Part shown: positions 7,546-44,113 of the stretch, piece by piece
How positions within the stretch are numbered: position 1 is the stretch's first letter
Layout of the letters: every line of letters begins with the position of its first letter
From: Methyloceanibacter sp.
GTDB taxonomy: Bacteria; Pseudomonadota; Alphaproteobacteria; Rhizobiales; Methyloligellaceae
Length of the DNA stretch: 46,572 nucleotides
Assembly: GCA_030064755.1 (NCBI GenBank)
Contig: JASJEH010000012.1
Location: 1-46,572 of the forward strand
Direction of reading: 5' to 3'
Position numbers and translations under genes: made by a program
Notes under the pieces: model-generated
What the model was told of the DNA's origin: nothing
Seen by the model: the letters and a program-made list of their open reading frames with translations, nothing else
Databases searched by the model: none

Positions 7546-7578
7546 GACTCTGAATCGCAACAACATGTTGATTCGGTT

Positions 7579-8175
7579 ATGCCCAGGCTATTCACCGCAA
7601 TAGAGATACCGAGGAGCATCGCCGATCGTTTGTCGATGCTTCGTGCCGGCCTTTCCGGCGCCCGCTGGATTGACCCGGAGAACTACCACCTCACTTTGCG
7701 CTTTATCGGCGACGTGGACGGAGCGACCGCCCGCCACTTCACGGATGCGCTCGGCGACATTCTGGCGGTTCCCTTCCGGCTGAAACTGAACGGTCTCGAC
7801 AGCTTCGGCGGCAACAAGCCGCGGGCGATTTTCGCAAGCGCCGAACCGTCGCCGGAACTCGAGGCCCTTCACTACGCGTGCGACGCCGCCGCGCGGCTGG
7901 CGGGGATGCCCCCGGAGCGGCGGAACTTCAAGCCCCACGTGACGGTCGCACGATTGCGCGGCACGCGCCCCGAGGCGGTCGCCGCCTATATGCAGAATGT
8001 GGGCCTGGTCTCGGAGGCGTTCACCGTGACGCGGTTCGTCCTGTACTCGTCGCGCGATTCGGTGGGTGGGGGCCCTTATGTCGTCGAAGCGGCCTACGAC
8101 CTCGACGATGACGAGGACGACTACTGCGGGGGGTACGATTTCGACCAGCCACCACTGTTCGGGATCGACCGCTAA
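7579..8175 (+). CDS. thpR: RNA 2',3'-cyclic phosphodiesterase (2'-5' RNA ligase family)
   Basis: This 198-residue protein carries the two HxTx motifs of the 2H phosphoesterase superfamily: HLTL at 37-40 and HVTV at 120-123. These histidines and threonines form the active site that opens 2',3'-cyclic phosphates on RNA. RLFTAIEIP at the N-terminus is also typical. The C-terminal 20 residues form a tail rich in aspartate, tyrosine and glycine (DDDEDDYCGG) that the short enterobacterial form lacks. It lies 33 bases after tas on the same strand. The physiological RNA substrate is unknown. Confidence 0.9.
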   Translation: MPRLFTAIEIPRSIADRLSMLRAGLSGARWIDPENYHLTLRFIGDVDGATARHFTDALGDILAVPFRLKLNGLDSFGGNKPRAIFASAEPSPELEALHYACDAAARLAGMPPERRNFKPHVTVARLRGTRPEAVAAYMQNVGLVSEAFTVTRFVLYSSRDSVGGGPYVVEAAYDLDDDEDDYCGGYDFDQPPLFGIDR

Positions 8176-20864: not shown

Positions 20865-20879
20865 TTAACGACTCGTTAA
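20865..20879. promoter_or_regulatory. CtrA-type binding site upstream of the GGDEF-EAL gene
   Basis: TTAA at 20865-20868 and TTAA at 20876-20879 are separated by exactly seven bases (CGACTCG), the full CtrA recognition pattern TTAA-N7-TTAA known in alphaproteobacteria. It lies about 76 bases before the next gene, a normal place for control by CtrA, the cell-cycle response regulator. CcrM-type GANTC (GACTC) also lies inside the spacer. Match seen; binding inferred. Confidence 0.6.
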
Positions 20880-20955: not shown

Positions 20956-23034
20956 ATGTCAGAGTTCGATTCGCGTGACCGTTGGGTCATGGGCGGTCTG
21001 GTGGTACTAGGCCTGGCCACAGTCATGGCTGCTGTTCTGTCAGGTGGATCAGCAATCAATTACGCTCTGGAGGTCGAAGCGAGTAACGCCGCCCATGCAT
21101 GGGGCGCCAAGATCGACAAGCGGCTCCGCACCGAGGTCGACGGCTTGGTGGCGTCGCCCTCCGAAACCGCCCTGGACATCATCGATCCCGCAGGCCTGCG
21201 CCAGCACTTAGAGCCAGACGGGATCAAATCCGACCGCGCGCCAACAGTGGCGGTCAATCAAAGTCATCGTAACTTCGCCGAGCGCCTTCGGTGGCTCTCC
21301 GGCGGCCTCCTCAGCGCCGACCCTGGACGGTCCGGCGACGATGCCGTCAGCAACATGGACGGCTTTGCCGTGCTGAGCCCAAGCGGCAAGACTTTAGCTT
21401 TGGGCGGTACGCTGAAACAAACCAGCCTATCGCACGCGCTGGAGACCAACGCGCTCAAGTCCGCGTTTGCCGAAGCGATCGACACGAAAGAGGTCACGGT
21501 CGCCGCGCTGCCCGAGCAAGACCGCAAGAGCATTGCCTTTGTGCCGGTCACGGAAGACGGAGAAGTGGCCTACCTCTATGCCTTTGAGGTCGACCAGAGC
21601 TCGGCAGCTGCGCTAACGAACCTCGCTCTTGTGGTCGTGACCGTAACCACAAGTCTGCTGATCGTCATGGGATTCTCCGTGCCAGCCGCCATTGCCTCAC
21701 GCCGCATTCGCGAGCGCTGGCAGGCCGAGGACAAGATTCGTTATCTCGCCATGCACGATTCTCTCACCGGATTGCCAAACCGACTGCAGTTCAGGCAGCA
21801 TCTCGAACAGGCAATCGCTCGTGCCAAGCGTCACAATACCAAGATCGCGGTGCTCGGCCTGGACCTTGACCGGTTCAAGAACGTCAATGACACGCTGGGC
21901 CACGCGACCGGCGACGCGCTGCTTGAGGAGGTAGCTGCGCGCCTCGTTGAGACGATCCGAGAAAGCGACGTGGTTGGACGGATGGGCGGCGACGAGTTCG
22001 CCGTCGTCGCCGAGAACATTAACTTGCCCGAGGACGCGATGACCCTGGCACAACGGATCTGCGACGCCCTTGGTGCTCCATACAAGGTCAACGGTCACGA
22101 GGTCACCACCTCCACAAGCGTCGGGATCGCCCTCGGCCCCGTAGCCAACCAGCCCGTCGACATCTTGATGAAGAACGCCGACTTGGCGCTCTACCGTGCA
22201 AAGCAGGATGGTCGCAACGCGTTCCGCTTCTTCGAGCCCGCCATGGACGCCGCCCTGCAAAGAAGGCGCCGCTTAGAGCATGACTTGCGCAATGCGATCC
22301 GCAAGAACCAGCTCTATCTCGATTACCAGCCGCAGTTCGGGCTCAATGAAGGCGAGCTTACCGGATACGAAGCGTTGGTGCGCTGGTGGCACCCATCGGA
22401 AGGCGATATTCCGCCATCGACCTTCGTTCCCATCGCCGAAGAAACGGGCCTCATCGTGCCGCTGGGCGAATGGATCCTCAAGACGGCCTGCACCTACGCC
22501 CTGGGATGGCCCGACGACACGAGGCTTGCCGTGAACCTGTCGGCGGCCCAGTTCAAGACGCAGGATGTGTTTGAGCTCGTGCGCCGCGTACTGGTGGAGA
22601 CCGGCCTTGGGCCGGAACGTCTTGAGCTTGAGATCACGGAAGGCACCATTCTGCAAAACACCGAAGCCGTCATCGAAACGCTGACCAAGCTAGACGCGCT
22701 CGGCGTCTCCATCGCTATGGACGACTTCGGAACGGGTTATTCGAGCTTGTCCTACCTCACGCGTTTCCCGGTCAAGAAGATCAAGATCGACCGTTCTTTC
22801 ATCGGTACGCTTGGTACAAACCCGCAAACCAGCGCCATCGTGTCCAGCATTGTCGGTCTGGGGCAATCGCTTGACGTTACGATTACGGCCGAGGGTGTCG
22901 AAACTGAGGGCCAGGCGGCCATGCTGAAGCACTGGGGCTGCGATCAGGTCCAAGGGTACTACTATGGCCGGCCCGAGGCCGAGGTGCCCGAAGACCCGCT
23001 CGAAGAGCTGCCCCTCGATCGCAACGTAGCCTAG
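20956..23034 (+). CDS. Membrane GGDEF-EAL protein (cyclic-di-GMP turnover)
   Basis: The 692-residue protein has helices at about 12-30 and 222-246 that hold a periplasmic sensor of unknown ligand (31-220). The GGDEF domain follows (about 260-430), with GLDLDRFKNVNDTLGH and an intact GGDEF at 344-348; RESD at 336-339 is a standard inhibitory site. The EAL domain (about 440-680) has EALVRW at 472-477, EITEG, DDFGTGYSS at 589-597 and EGVET, all intact. It may therefore make and destroy cyclic-di-GMP; which activity dominates cannot be told. A CtrA-type site precedes it, suggesting cell-cycle control of adhesion or motility. Confidence 0.95.
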   Translation: MSEFDSRDRWVMGGLVVLGLATVMAAVLSGGSAINYALEVEASNAAHAWGAKIDKRLRTEVDGLVASPSETALDIIDPAGLRQHLEPDGIKSDRAPTVAVNQSHRNFAERLRWLSGGLLSADPGRSGDDAVSNMDGFAVLSPSGKTLALGGTLKQTSLSHALETNALKSAFAEAIDTKEVTVAALPEQDRKSIAFVPVTEDGEVAYLYAFEVDQSSAAALTNLALVVVTVTTSLLIVMGFSVPAAIASRRIRERWQAEDKIRYLAMHDSLTGLPNRLQFRQHLEQAIARAKRHNTKIAVLGLDLDRFKNVNDTLGHATGDALLEEVAARLVETIRESDVVGRMGGDEFAVVAENINLPEDAMTLAQRICDALGAPYKVNGHEVTTSTSVGIALGPVANQPVDILMKNADLALYRAKQDGRNAFRFFEPAMDAALQRRRRLEHDLRNAIRKNQLYLDYQPQFGLNEGELTGYEALVRWWHPSEGDIPPSTFVPIAEETGLIVPLGEWILKTACTYALGWPDDTRLAVNLSAAQFKTQDVFELVRRVLVETGLGPERLELEITEGTILQNTEAVIETLTKLDALGVSIAMDDFGTGYSSLSYLTRFPVKKIKIDRSFIGTLGTNPQTSAIVSSIVGLGQSLDVTITAEGVETEGQAAMLKHWGCDQVQGYYYGRPEAEVPEDPLEELPLDRNVA

Positions 23035-41183: not shown

Positions 41184-41807
41184 TCATCCTTGGATCGCAC
41201 CTTCGCGCCGCAACGCGTCGAGAAGCGGGAGGAGCGGCAGGCCGAGGATCGAGAAGTAGTCGCCGTCTATCTTCTCGAAAAGCTGGATTCCGAGGGATTC
41301 GACTTGATAGGCGCCCACTGCCGCCAATACACCTTGGCCAGCCGTGGCAAGGTAGCGGCCGACAAATTCCGGCGACAAAGGCCGCATGGTCAGCGTTGCG
41401 ACATCGGTATGCGCCCAGACGGTTGCGCCTCCGGTGGCCACGACCACGGCAGTATGCAGTTGGTGGCTCTTGCCGCTCAGGTCGAGAAGCCGGCCGCGCG
41501 CTTCTTCGAGAGACGACGGCTTCCCGTAGATCTTGTCGCCAACGGCCATGATCTGATCCGCCCCGATGACGAACGAGCCCCCAGCCCCTGCACTCACAGC
41601 CTCAGCTTTCGCACGTGCCAAGACCTCGGCAACATCGCTTGGTTCGACGGTACCTTCGAGACCCATCGCTGTACGCATGGCGCCCTCGTCGAGGCCCGCG
41701 GCCTTTGTAGTAAAGGAGAGCCCGGCGCCTTCGAGAAGCTTGCGCCGGGGCAAGCTGGCGGACGCAAGGACTAGGGGCCGGCAACCTTCTTGGAGAAATG
41801 TACTCAT
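41184..41807 (-). CDS. maf: Maf family nucleoside triphosphate pyrophosphatase
   Basis: The 207-residue protein has VLASASLPRRKLLEGAG, VIGADQIMAVGDKIYGKP and LRREGAI, the Maf fold that hydrolyses non-standard nucleotides. ATGA overlaps the end of ppsR (41804-41807), which links translation of the two. Exact substrate (dTTP/UTP or m7GTP types) is not decided by what I see. Confidence 0.93.
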   Translation of the reverse strand: MSTFLQEGCRPLVLASASLPRRKLLEGAGLSFTTKAAGLDEGAMRTAMGLEGTVEPSDVAEVLARAKAEAVSAGAGGSFVIGADQIMAVGDKIYGKPSSLEEARGRLLDLSGKSHQLHTAVVVATGGATVWAHTDVATLTMRPLSPEFVGRYLATAGQGVLAAVGAYQVESLGIQLFEKIDGDYFSILGLPLLPLLDALRREGAIQG

Positions 41808-42640
41808 GAGTCTAATGCCGGCGCATCGCGATCGTCATACAGGCGAATGATCGCGGCAGCCGTCTCCTCGATCGATCGCCGGGTGACATCGATAATGGGC
41901 CAGCCGCGGCGCGCACAGAGCTGGCGGGTTTGTGCGATCTCGGCGGCAATGGCGTCGCGATCAACATAGTCATCCAGGTGACCATGGGCCTGCTCGATGA
42001 CCCGGTTATGGCGCACCTGGGAGATCCGCTCCGGGCTCGCGACAAGCGCGACAACAAAGGCGCTCGTATCATCTTCGAGCTGCGGTGGGATCGGCACGCC
42101 GGGAACCAATGGGACATTGGCTGTCTTGAGCCCGCGATTGGCAAGATAGATGCTGGTCGGGGTCTTCGAGGTTCGGCTAATGCCGAGCAGAATGATGTCG
42201 GCATCGTCCAAATTGTCCGGCAGATGACCGTCGTCATGCATCATGGTGAAGTTCAACGCTTCAATACGTTTGAAGTAATCGGCATCCAGCTGGTGCTGAC
42301 CGCCAACTGTGGGGGTCGACGCCATACCCAGATAGCTCTCAAAGACTTTGAGGACATTCAGGAGCGGAGCGACATACGGAACGTTCAGCTGCTTGCAGGC
42401 CTGTTCCAGCTTCTCTGCCAGGTCACGATTGAAAAGCGTGTAAAGCACAATGCCCGGCGCCGCTTCGACGTCTCTCAAGACGCGCTCCAGTTCGCGCTCG
42501 CTCCGCACGAGCGGATGCAGATGCTCGATCGCCCGTGCGGCAGCGTACTGCACGCCAACGGCCCGCGCGATCGTCACGAGCGTCTCGCCCGTGGCGTCTG
42601 AGATCATATGCAGATGAAATGTGCGCTGTTGGATATCCAT
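41804..42640 (-). CDS. ppsR: Pyruvate, phosphate dikinase / PEP synthase regulatory protein (DUF299)
   Basis: The 278-residue bifunctional kinase-pyrophosphorylase switches PEP synthase or PPDK by threonine phosphorylation. LHMISDATGETL opens the protein and the P-loop-like GISRTSKTPTSIYLANRGLK is the nucleotide site. In Caulobacter and Rickettsia a gene of this family borders the origin of replication opposite hemE, as here. It opens the run toward dnaQ. Confidence 0.93.
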   Translation of the reverse strand: MDIQQRTFHLHMISDATGETLVTIARAVGVQYAAARAIEHLHPLVRSERELERVLRDVEAAPGIVLYTLFNRDLAEKLEQACKQLNVPYVAPLLNVLKVFESYLGMASTPTVGGQHQLDADYFKRIEALNFTMMHDDGHLPDNLDDADIILLGISRTSKTPTSIYLANRGLKTANVPLVPGVPIPPQLEDDTSAFVVALVASPERISQVRHNRVIEQAHGHLDDYVDRDAIAAEIAQTRQLCARRGWPIIDVTRRSIEETAAAIIRLYDDRDAPALDS

Positions 42641-43069
42641 TGTACGACCATTGGATAACTGGGCCTGGCGAGGTGAGCAACATTACGCGGCGTTTCGGCT
42701 CTCCCCGCTAACCAGGAAACCATACGCTTTGTTTTTCACAGATTCGTCTGTGTCTAGATCGTGACGGAGTTTATCAGCAGGGGGGACAATAGCCTTTTTC
42801 ATCCCCAACTCCGAGCGGGTGAAACCCACAAGCCATAGGGCTGTTCTCAAGACCCAAGCCGACGCAAAAAGCGCTTATGACTCAGCCGCTTATTTCCAAC
42901 ATCACAGACGCTTAGCCACAGCGGAGTGCGCGTATCGCTATACCGTCAGAGTCGGGCCTAAGTAGCCTGTTGAAAGAGTGGTGATGAAGATGAATGTCCG
43001 CTATTCACGCAATAACAAAAATAACAAAAACCCTTTTAAAGACTCTTCTTATTAGTTTTAGAGAGACGC
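42641..43069. other. Candidate chromosomal replication origin
   Basis: This 429-base gap lies between divergent ppsR and hemE, the known place of the Caulobacter/Rickettsia origin. DnaA-box-like sequences are TTTTTCACA (42732-42740), TTAGCCACA (42912-42920) and CTATTCACG (43001-43009), each with one or two mismatches to TTATNCACA. Four GANTC sites (42741, 42879, 42949, 43041) suit CcrM methylation. The right end is AT-rich with two copies of ATAACAAAA (43012-43030), a possible unwinding element. No gene of 60 codons seems real here. Confidence 0.55.
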
Positions 43070-44113
43070 ATGGCTGTCCCCAACCTCCCGTTTCTATCGG
43101 TCTTAAGTGGCCAGGCCTGTTCGCCGCCCCCAATGTGGCTCATGCGTCAGGCGGGGCGTTACCTTCCGGAGTATCGGGAAATTCGGAAGAACGTTCCGTC
43201 GTTCTTGGATCTCTGCCTCACGCCAAAGCTTGCGGCTGAGGTGACCCTTCAGCCCTTGCGACGTTTTCCGTTTGATGCGTCCATCGTGTTCTCTGACATT
43301 CTCATCGTCCCGCATGCACTCGGGCAGTCCGTTACTTTCGTCGAGGGTGAAGGACCGAAACTCGATCCAATTCGTGACGCGGCGGCGCTGGCGCGGCTCG
43401 ATCCTACAAAGGCATCCTCAAGGCTCTCTCCCGTCTATGAGACGGTGGAACGGGTCGTCGCTGGGCTTCCGGACCATGTGCCGCTAATCGGGTTCTGTGG
43501 CGCGCCCTGGACCGTGGCGACCTATATGGTGGAAGGGGCCGGCAGTAAGGATCAGGCAAAGGCACGGGGCTTGGCTTACGCCGACCCCACCCTGTTTCAG
43601 GCGATGATCGACACGATCGTTGAGACGTCGGTAGGCTATCTTCTAGGACAGGTCGCTGCGGGCTGCCGGGCGCTCCAGATCTTCGATAGCTGGTCGGGCA
43701 GCCTCCCGGAGGATGCCTTCGCGCAATGGTGCATAGCGCCAACACGAGAGATCGTCACCAAGGTGAAGGCGCAAGTGCCGGATGTTCCGATCATCGGCTT
43801 CCCCCGTGGGTCAGGGCCCTCGGCGGCACGCTATGCGGCCGAGACCGGCATCGATGCCATTGGCTGCGATACGAGCCTCCCGGTTGAATGGATTCGCGAC
43901 ACGCTTCAACCGATGATGCCGGTCCAAGGCAATCTCGACCCCGTGCTGCTTGTGGCTGGCGGACCTGCTCTAGACGCAAGGGTGCGGGAGATCCTCGCTG
44001 TCCTCGGCGAGAAGCCGTTCATCTTCAATCTGGGCCATGGCATCTTGCCGGAGACGCCCATCGCGAACGTGGAACGGCTCGTGCAGCTGGTGAAGGGCGA
44101 AGACGCCGCTTAA
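43070..44113 (+). CDS. hemE: Uroporphyrinogen decarboxylase
   Basis: The 347-residue enzyme makes coproporphyrinogen III in heme synthesis. PPMWLMRQAGRYLPEYREIR is the family signature, with the substrate-binding arginines; GFCGAPWTVATYMVEG and the C-terminal NLGHGILPETP also fit. hemJ follows after 15 bases. The upstream region is the candidate origin. Confidence 0.97.
   Translation: MAVPNLPFLSVLSGQACSPPPMWLMRQAGRYLPEYREIRKNVPSFLDLCLTPKLAAEVTLQPLRRFPFDASIVFSDILIVPHALGQSVTFVEGEGPKLDPIRDAAALARLDPTKASSRLSPVYETVERVVAGLPDHVPLIGFCGAPWTVATYMVEGAGSKDQAKARGLAYADPTLFQAMIDTIVETSVGYLLGQVAAGCRALQIFDSWSGSLPEDAFAQWCIAPTREIVTKVKAQVPDVPIIGFPRGSGPSAARYAAETGIDAIGCDTSLPVEWIRDTLQPMMPVQGNLDPVLLVAGGPALDARVREILAVLGEKPFIFNLGHGILPETPIANVERLVQLVKGEDAA

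Follow-up and report, generated by a model that had tools for sequence, protein, structure and literature searches.

In alphaproteobacteria, a chromosomal origin of replication situated between hemE and a gene of the COG1806 family has been described for Caulobacter and Rickettsia (PMC1914354, citing Brassinga and co-workers), a parallel that the original prediction for the DNA analysed here had already drawn. As far as the published descriptions go, the Cori of Caulobacter crescentus resembles the present locus in its two flanking genes, its size, its weak and non-canonical DnaA boxes, its AT-rich part and its GANTC sites (PMC1914354, PMC4468827, PMC3973325); unlike in Cori, no CtrA or IHF site was found in the present locus. 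For the Rickettsia prowazekii origin, the likeness described is in the hemE/COG1806 gene pair (PMC1914354). The origins of Caulobacter and its close relatives are known to contain several GANTC sites (PMC3973325), and such sites are also reported in the repABC origins of secondary replicons of Rhizobiales, for example Agrobacterium ori2, where effects of CcrM on initiation have been described (PMC11514494, PMC6090056); these origins, unlike the present one, are driven by RepC and do not lie at the hemE locus.

The stretch under analysis, referred to below as the window, comprises 46,572 bases from a Methyloceanibacter genome, a genus that the NCBI taxonomy places in the Hyphomicrobiaceae, order Hyphomicrobiales. 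A literature search that took in few subscription papers returned no publication combining 'Methyloceanibacter' and 'origin of replication'. The non-coding gap between DUF299 and hemE in this window is very probably the origin of the main chromosome, judging from the sequence comparisons set out below. An origin of the hemE/COG1806 kind is already known, and the position of the gap is as expected for alphaproteobacteria; what is less expected is that AGANTCT, a CcrM-type site, is retained in weak DNA beside hemE across many related species. In this way the probable origin of a little-studied genus is placed without experiment, and a base-level map of conserved elements becomes available for mutation.

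The gap between DUF299 and hemE

41804..42640, minus strand: DUF299/Kinase-PPPase (COG1806) flanking gene, PF03618 match with E 2.7e-85
42641..43069, no strand assigned: candidate chromosomal origin, non-coding gap of 429 bases between the divergent DUF299 and hemE genes
43070..44113, plus strand: hemE, uroporphyrinogen decarboxylase, flanking gene, PF01208 match with E 7e-115

The coordinates and the two Pfam matches bear out the 429-base non-coding gap that had been predicted, and among 15 distinct members of the genus the aligned gap measures 426-449 nt, so that the non-coding interval of several hundred bp between DUF299 and hemE that characterizes origins of the hemE/COG1806 type is present. 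GC content is 0.49 in the gap and 0.62 in the window as a whole, which puts the AT content of the gap above the window average. A known RNA family was dropped as a candidate, since an Rfam search of 42400-43300 gave no match.

The draft genome to which the window belongs totals 3,015,311 bases over 157 contigs, with the window on contig C129 and dnaA on another contig, C31. Its nearest named relatives by hemE are UBA7697 (81%) and Methyloceanibacter methanicus (79%), whose gaps are the same as those of G003 and G013, two genomes of the genus. Fifteen of the 17 genus genomes gave a gap, G006 being without a hemE match and G011 being cut, and the genus alignment of 17 rows contained two duplicates, leaving 15 distinct gaps. 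The first wider set consisted of 110 hemE loci (L002-L111), of which 27 had no match to the window's DUF299 protein in the fetched flank and were excluded from all motif counts; one of these is L092, where the contig ends, and in L026 the DUF299 match lies at a distance of 3.7 kb. With L082 (the window itself), L086 and L087 (duplicates of L002 and L003) and L100, L103 and L108 (identical to L004, L005 and L008) taken into account, 77 distinct gaps remained, the window included. In Bradyrhizobium-type loci such as L031, L033 and L035, no DUF299 match stands beside hemE within the 4-kb flank, a possible sign that the ancestral arrangement around the origin was disrupted in them.

Position on the chromosome

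Since the draft to which the window belongs is split into 157 contigs, the GC-skew check that had been proposed for this locus used as proxies G005 and G014, two genomes of the genus that each consist of a single contig, with these contigs taken as circles. Twenty stretches of 20 kb were sampled per genome, with extra stretches around the gap, giving 535 kb of 3.42 Mb in G005 and 560 kb of 3.21 Mb in G014. The terminus was fixed for the main fit at the single dif-like site; G005, G014 and G018 have one such site apiece, and a reversed-pattern control gave none; these sites carry 3 mismatches to what we take to be the dif pattern.

In both genomes the left arm has a negative and the right arm a positive mean skew, although single stretches deviate and the skew is weak (1-2% on average). 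The best origin positions on the grid fall at the hemE gap, at 335.0-337.5 kb in G005, where hemE starts at 336,303, and at 1690.0-1692.5 kb in G014, where the minus-strand hemE has its start at 1,689,979. None of 1370 candidate positions in G005 and none of 1284 in G014 outscored the position of the gap, and the bootstrap 5-95% interval extends from -21 to +14 kb in G005 and from -25 to 0 kb in G014, with a resolution of about 5 kb since the data were cut in 5-kb blocks. When an antipodal terminus was assumed instead, the gap ranked 1 of 172 in G005 and tied for rank 1 of 161 in G014. The change of skew at the gap that belongs to the hemE/COG1806 type of origin is thus present at the orthologous position in both proxies, in support of the original prediction, and the gap presumably serves as origin in the window's own genome as well.

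The polarity of GGGNAGGG, taken as a second arm marker, counts against the sharpness of this placement. Its best breaks lie at 190-237.5 kb in G005 (about 100-146 kb to the left of the gap) and at 1760-1867.5 kb in G014 (70-177 kb to the right), with 174 of 1370 and 132 of 1284 candidates beating the gap; as a locator of the origin it was rejected, its break being off the gap. As a further arm marker, 16S rRNA matched in 0 of 3 genomes and, being also unmatched in 5 of 14 controls, Caulobacter among them, was set aside. In G014 (L099, C1:1688943-1689979) hemE appears as two overlapping matches, which points to a frameshift or a sequencing error.

An exact parS consensus occurs in only one of nine genomes (G048), where the sites are 3.5-5.5 kb from hemE. 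With up to 2 mismatches allowed, G005 has seven parS-like sites, four of them 4.3-7.6 kb past hemE; the distance from hemE is 6.9-9.0 kb for three of the six sites in G014 and 8.0-10.4 kb for three of the five in G018, and in the window's own genome four of seven fall within 3.3 kb on contig C45. Only this clustering speaks for the origin, because the totals do not exceed a reversed-pattern control, being equal to it in three genomes and below it in G005 (7 vs 11). Contig C45 carries genes that, recognized by eye, are presumably mnmE, mnmG and rsmG, and in G005 genes that look to us like mnmE and mnmG follow rho beyond hemE.

Conserved DnaA-box-like sites

42650..42658, minus strand: DnaA-box-like TTATCCAAT, invariant run TGGATAAC, 7/9 to TTATCCACA
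42732..42746, plus strand: DnaA-box-like TTTTTCACA (42732-42740) fused to a CcrM-type GATTC site (42741-42745), then G
42801..42807, plus strand: ATCCCCA, kept in 11/15 genus gaps
42912..42920, plus strand: DnaA-box-like TTAGCCACA, partly conserved, listed in 5/15 genus gaps
42977..43009, plus strand: conserved core TGGTGA ... GAATGTCCG, then DnaA-box-like CTATTCACG (43001-43009)

No canonical DnaA box was found in the gap. The box-like sites that the original prediction had placed at 42732, 42912 and 43001 are there (TTTTTCACA, TTAGCCACA and CTATTCACG) and are, as it said, degenerate; its list was incomplete in that it passed over the fully conserved minus-strand box TTATCCAAT at 42650-42658. 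TTTTTCACA and TTAGCCACA are two of the three one-mismatch matches to TTATNCACA in the 46,572 bases of the window, which as a whole has fewer of them than shuffled sequence (3 vs a mean of 10.4), and CTATTCACG differs from TTATNCACA at two positions.

The comparison across relatives, which had also been suggested, revealed that three of these degenerate boxes and two GANTC sites are kept in all 15 genus gaps. GGATAAC occurs within the first 60 nt, at the DUF299 end, of 15/15 gaps, as do, elsewhere in the gap, TAT[CT]CAC and GAATGTC.G, the core 42977-43009 containing the invariant runs TGGTGA and GAATGTC; the pattern T[TG]CACAGATTCG is present in 15/15 genus gaps, 2/32 gaps of other Hyphomicrobiales and 0/14 of other orders. 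ATCCCCA is a candidate only, for its resemblance to what we take to be the weak W-box of Caulobacter. An unrelated control gap, hemJ-rho, has 12.2% invariant columns against 18.9% in the hemE gap (14 rows each, L095 lacking the control), with a longest run of 10 in both; since the control gap is partly conserved too, the argument for an origin comes from what the blocks contain and where they lie, and not from conservation as such. Elsewhere in the window, at 7546-7600, a stretch of some 55 bases that follows an aldo/keto reductase gene combines an exact IHF consensus with three GANTC sites, TTATGCCCA and GCTATTCACCGCAATA (a near match to the origin core at 43000).

The weak helix beside hemE

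43001..43060, no strand assigned: putative DNA-unwinding element, AT-rich (GC 0.25), beginning at the CTATTCACG box
43011..43031, plus strand: seven A-centred triplets, a trio-like candidate that holds the ATAACAAAA repeat (P 0.045 in the window)
43040..43046, no strand assigned: AGACTCT, which contains a CcrM-type GANTC site and lies in the weak DNA on the hemE side
43043..43060, minus strand: six A-centred triplets (P 0.015 in the window), starting 33 nt after the box

The AT-rich right end with its repeat had been noticed correctly: no other 60-bp helix in the window is as weak as 43001-43060 (-67.3 vs -73.4 for the next), and ATAACAAAA occurs twice, at 43012 and 43021. Runs of A-centred triplets with a shuffle P <0.05 are found on the plus strand in 5/15 genus gaps and 10/62 other gaps, and on the minus strand in 6/15 and 3/62, respectively. 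The CTATTCACG box has 3 mismatches to TTATCCACA in the window, and forms with 1-2 mismatches occur in 8/15 genus gaps.

In the basal unwinding system of Bacillus subtilis, whose trios have a polarity relative to the box, a box is likewise followed by A-centred triplets and AT-rich DNA; in the present gap, by contrast, the triplets beside the box stand on the box strand, seemingly with the opposite polarity. It has been demonstrated that trio orientation matters in B. subtilis (PMC6669920), and the BUS rule, as given in PMC8287927, asks for a box with at most 2 mismatches to TTATCCACA and at least 3 trios within 16 nt on the proper strand. None of the candidate single-strand motifs in the gap cleanly fits that rule, the other-strand triplets, 33 nt after the box, being beyond the 16-nt limit that the published program applies. 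With weak statistics and an apparently reversed strand beside the box, the DnaA-trio reading was kept as a lead only, and a contrast between orders in CTAC-type trios (1/32 vs 3/14) was set aside as too weak. Among other alphaproteobacteria, L032 and L044 (Sneathiella and an unassigned one) have a DnaA-like box, AAC/TAC triplets and AT-rich DNA at the hemE-side end of the gap, an arrangement close to a textbook unwinding module, and L024 and L051 have triplets at that end without a clear box.

A further comparison is offered by Escherichia coli oriC, whose 13-mer, as we assume it to read, is resembled by CTTATTAG. The gap shares with oriC a methylation site inside the weak region, which in E. 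coli is a Dam site; in place of Dam GATC it has CcrM GANTC, and no IHF site was found in it. The E. coli unwinding element carries TTGT/TTATT motifs (PMC10316083), and the T-rich strand of the present gap similarly has TTGTTATT repeats.

GANTC sites and the AGANTCT element

Four GANTC sites lie in the gap (42741, 42879, 42949 and 43041), the number originally reported, against 1.0 expected at the window's own rate (Poisson P = 0.019), a four-fold higher density that is reached or exceeded, with at least 4 sites, in 0.8% of 429-bp windows. Conservation in the genus holds for the sites at 42741 and 43041, present in 15/15 gaps, and fails for those at 42879 and 42949. Over the whole window GANTC is strongly depleted, with 109 sites vs about 234 in dinucleotide shuffles.

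The site at 43041 is the centre of AGACTCT. AGANTCT was found at most 110 nt upstream of hemE in 14/15 genus gaps (0.78 expected from shuffles) and in 27/62 other gaps (2.30 expected), its GANTC standing 28-80 nt upstream of the gene. When orders were assigned from record titles or a kinship listing, the element near hemE occurred in 23/32 Hyphomicrobiales outside the genus vs 1/14 loci of other orders (Fisher 6e-5, a value that is optimistic owing to related loci); 16 gaps had no order, and 3 of these have the element. Mid-gap it was present in 0/15 genus gaps, 1/32 other Hyphomicrobiales and 1/14 of other orders, and at the DUF299 end in 0/15, 1/32 and 0/14. A held-out set of 26 loci (2 of the window's family and 24 of the same order), which took in every remaining listed hemE match except G038, with its start cut off, and the second hemE piece of G014, and which by megablast held no near copy of a first-set locus, comprised 22 with a DUF299 gap; among these AGANTCT occurred near hemE in 15/22 vs mid-gap in 1/22 (P = 1.8e-5, again optimistic given related loci), and of the four without a DUF299 gap in reach one has it.

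The middle base of AGANTCT is C in 19, A in 13, T in 12 and G in 2 of 46 cases; such variation would be expected of a CcrM target, and the scarcity of G shows that one strand is preferred to some degree. Genes for GcrA (E 7.2e-57) and for a CcrM-like protein of 368 aa, whose best PDB match is CcrMI (6pbd, E 8.4e-159), are present in the genome. In literature that included few subscription papers, no published description of AGANTCT in the unwinding element of Hyphomicrobiales main origins was found.

Alternative explanations and proposed mechanism

Two other accounts of the locus have to be weighed against a chromosomal origin in the gap. It could do no more than hold the divergent promoters of hemE and the DUF299 gene, its conserved blocks being promoter or leader elements and the origin lying elsewhere nearby; the flanking genes are indeed divergent, GANTC sites are reported to work in CcrM/GcrA-dependent promoters (PMC8116508), the neighbouring hemJ-rho gap also has conserved runs, and the GGGNAGGG break is not at the gap. 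Yet the skew breaks at the gap in two chromosomes, DnaA-like boxes are among the invariant blocks and the window's weakest helix lies there, which makes this account very improbable; a search for sigma-70-like promoters in the gap found none, a result of little weight since 0.5 would be expected by chance and other promoter types were outside the search. An origin at or near dnaA, the common arrangement outside alphaproteobacteria, is more improbable still and was rejected on skew: in G005 dnaA is found at 696 kb, about 360 kb from the skew break, and in G014 at 1354 kb, about 335 kb from it. A skew minimum elsewhere, for example near dnaA or parAB, had been named beforehand as a finding that would refute the gap; in both proxies the skew changes sign at the gap.

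For the gap as origin, a mechanism may be proposed from what can be read in the DNA, namely where the skew breaks on two chromosomes of the genus, which boxes and GANTC sites are conserved, how weak the helix is, and that GcrA and a CcrM-like protein are encoded; we infer from these that DnaA binds, where the DNA opens and what methylation might do. DnaA would load on weak, spread boxes, the inverted one at 42650, the one at 42732 that abuts GATTC and the one at 43001, and the complex would open the AT-rich DNA at 43010-43062 beside hemE, after which the helicase would be loaded and two forks would depart. Candidate single-strand motifs for DnaA are the A-centred triplets on the plus strand (43011-43031), the TTGTTATT repeats of the opposite strand, in the manner of the ssDUE mechanism of E. 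coli, and the A-centred triplets on the minus strand (43043-43060). CcrM may mark old and new origins by methylating the conserved GANTC at 42741, which adjoins a DnaA box, and that at 43041, in weak DNA.

For AGANTCT itself there are two readings. In many Hyphomicrobiales origins it might be a CcrM switch in the unwinding element, hemimethylation altering reopening and replacing the CtrA control of Caulobacter, in which case it would be the counterpart of the Dam sites in the E. coli 13-mers; we regard this as rather unlikely. There is about an even chance that it is instead a GcrA/CcrM-responsive promoter element of hemE, located within the origin and separate from the unwinding machinery, as suggested by its distance from hemE, by the GcrA gene and by the rarity of G at the middle position, since a site that served only as a palindromic methylation target would need no such bias in orientation; against this stands its place in the window's weakest DNA, after a conserved box and an A-rich tract. 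GcrA is reported to bind promoters with methylated GANTC (PMC8116508). The effects of CcrM elsewhere also bear on the choice. Agrobacterium ori1 is, we assume, a hemE-type origin. On CcrM depletion in Agrobacterium, likewise a member of the Hyphomicrobiales, ori2 was delayed and cells with two ori1 foci went from about 58% to 52%, essentially unchanged (PMC11514494), and in C. crescentus, according to a review, CcrM is dispensable for initiation and its overexpression disturbs chromosome number (PMC6090056); in view of these data AGANTCT may equally be a promoter element of hemE, and those from Agrobacterium speak against a strong methylation effect. CcrM is reported to be essential in several alphaproteobacteria and not in C. 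crescentus (PMC6090056), and the element offers a direct route to asking why, and whether methylation acts at the main origin.

CtrA and IHF sites

As had been predicted, no clear CtrA pair is present: the best match to TTAA-N7-TTAA in the gap has 2 mismatches, and the gap was therefore not assigned to the CtrA-controlled Cori type. No IHF site was found in the gap with up to 1 mismatch allowed. Elsewhere in the window, at 20865-20879, there is a perfect TTAA-N7-TTAA palindrome of CtrA type with a GANTC inside, 76 nt upstream of a GGDEF/EAL gene (20956-23034, plus strand), which suggests that this c-di-GMP enzyme may be under cell-cycle control.
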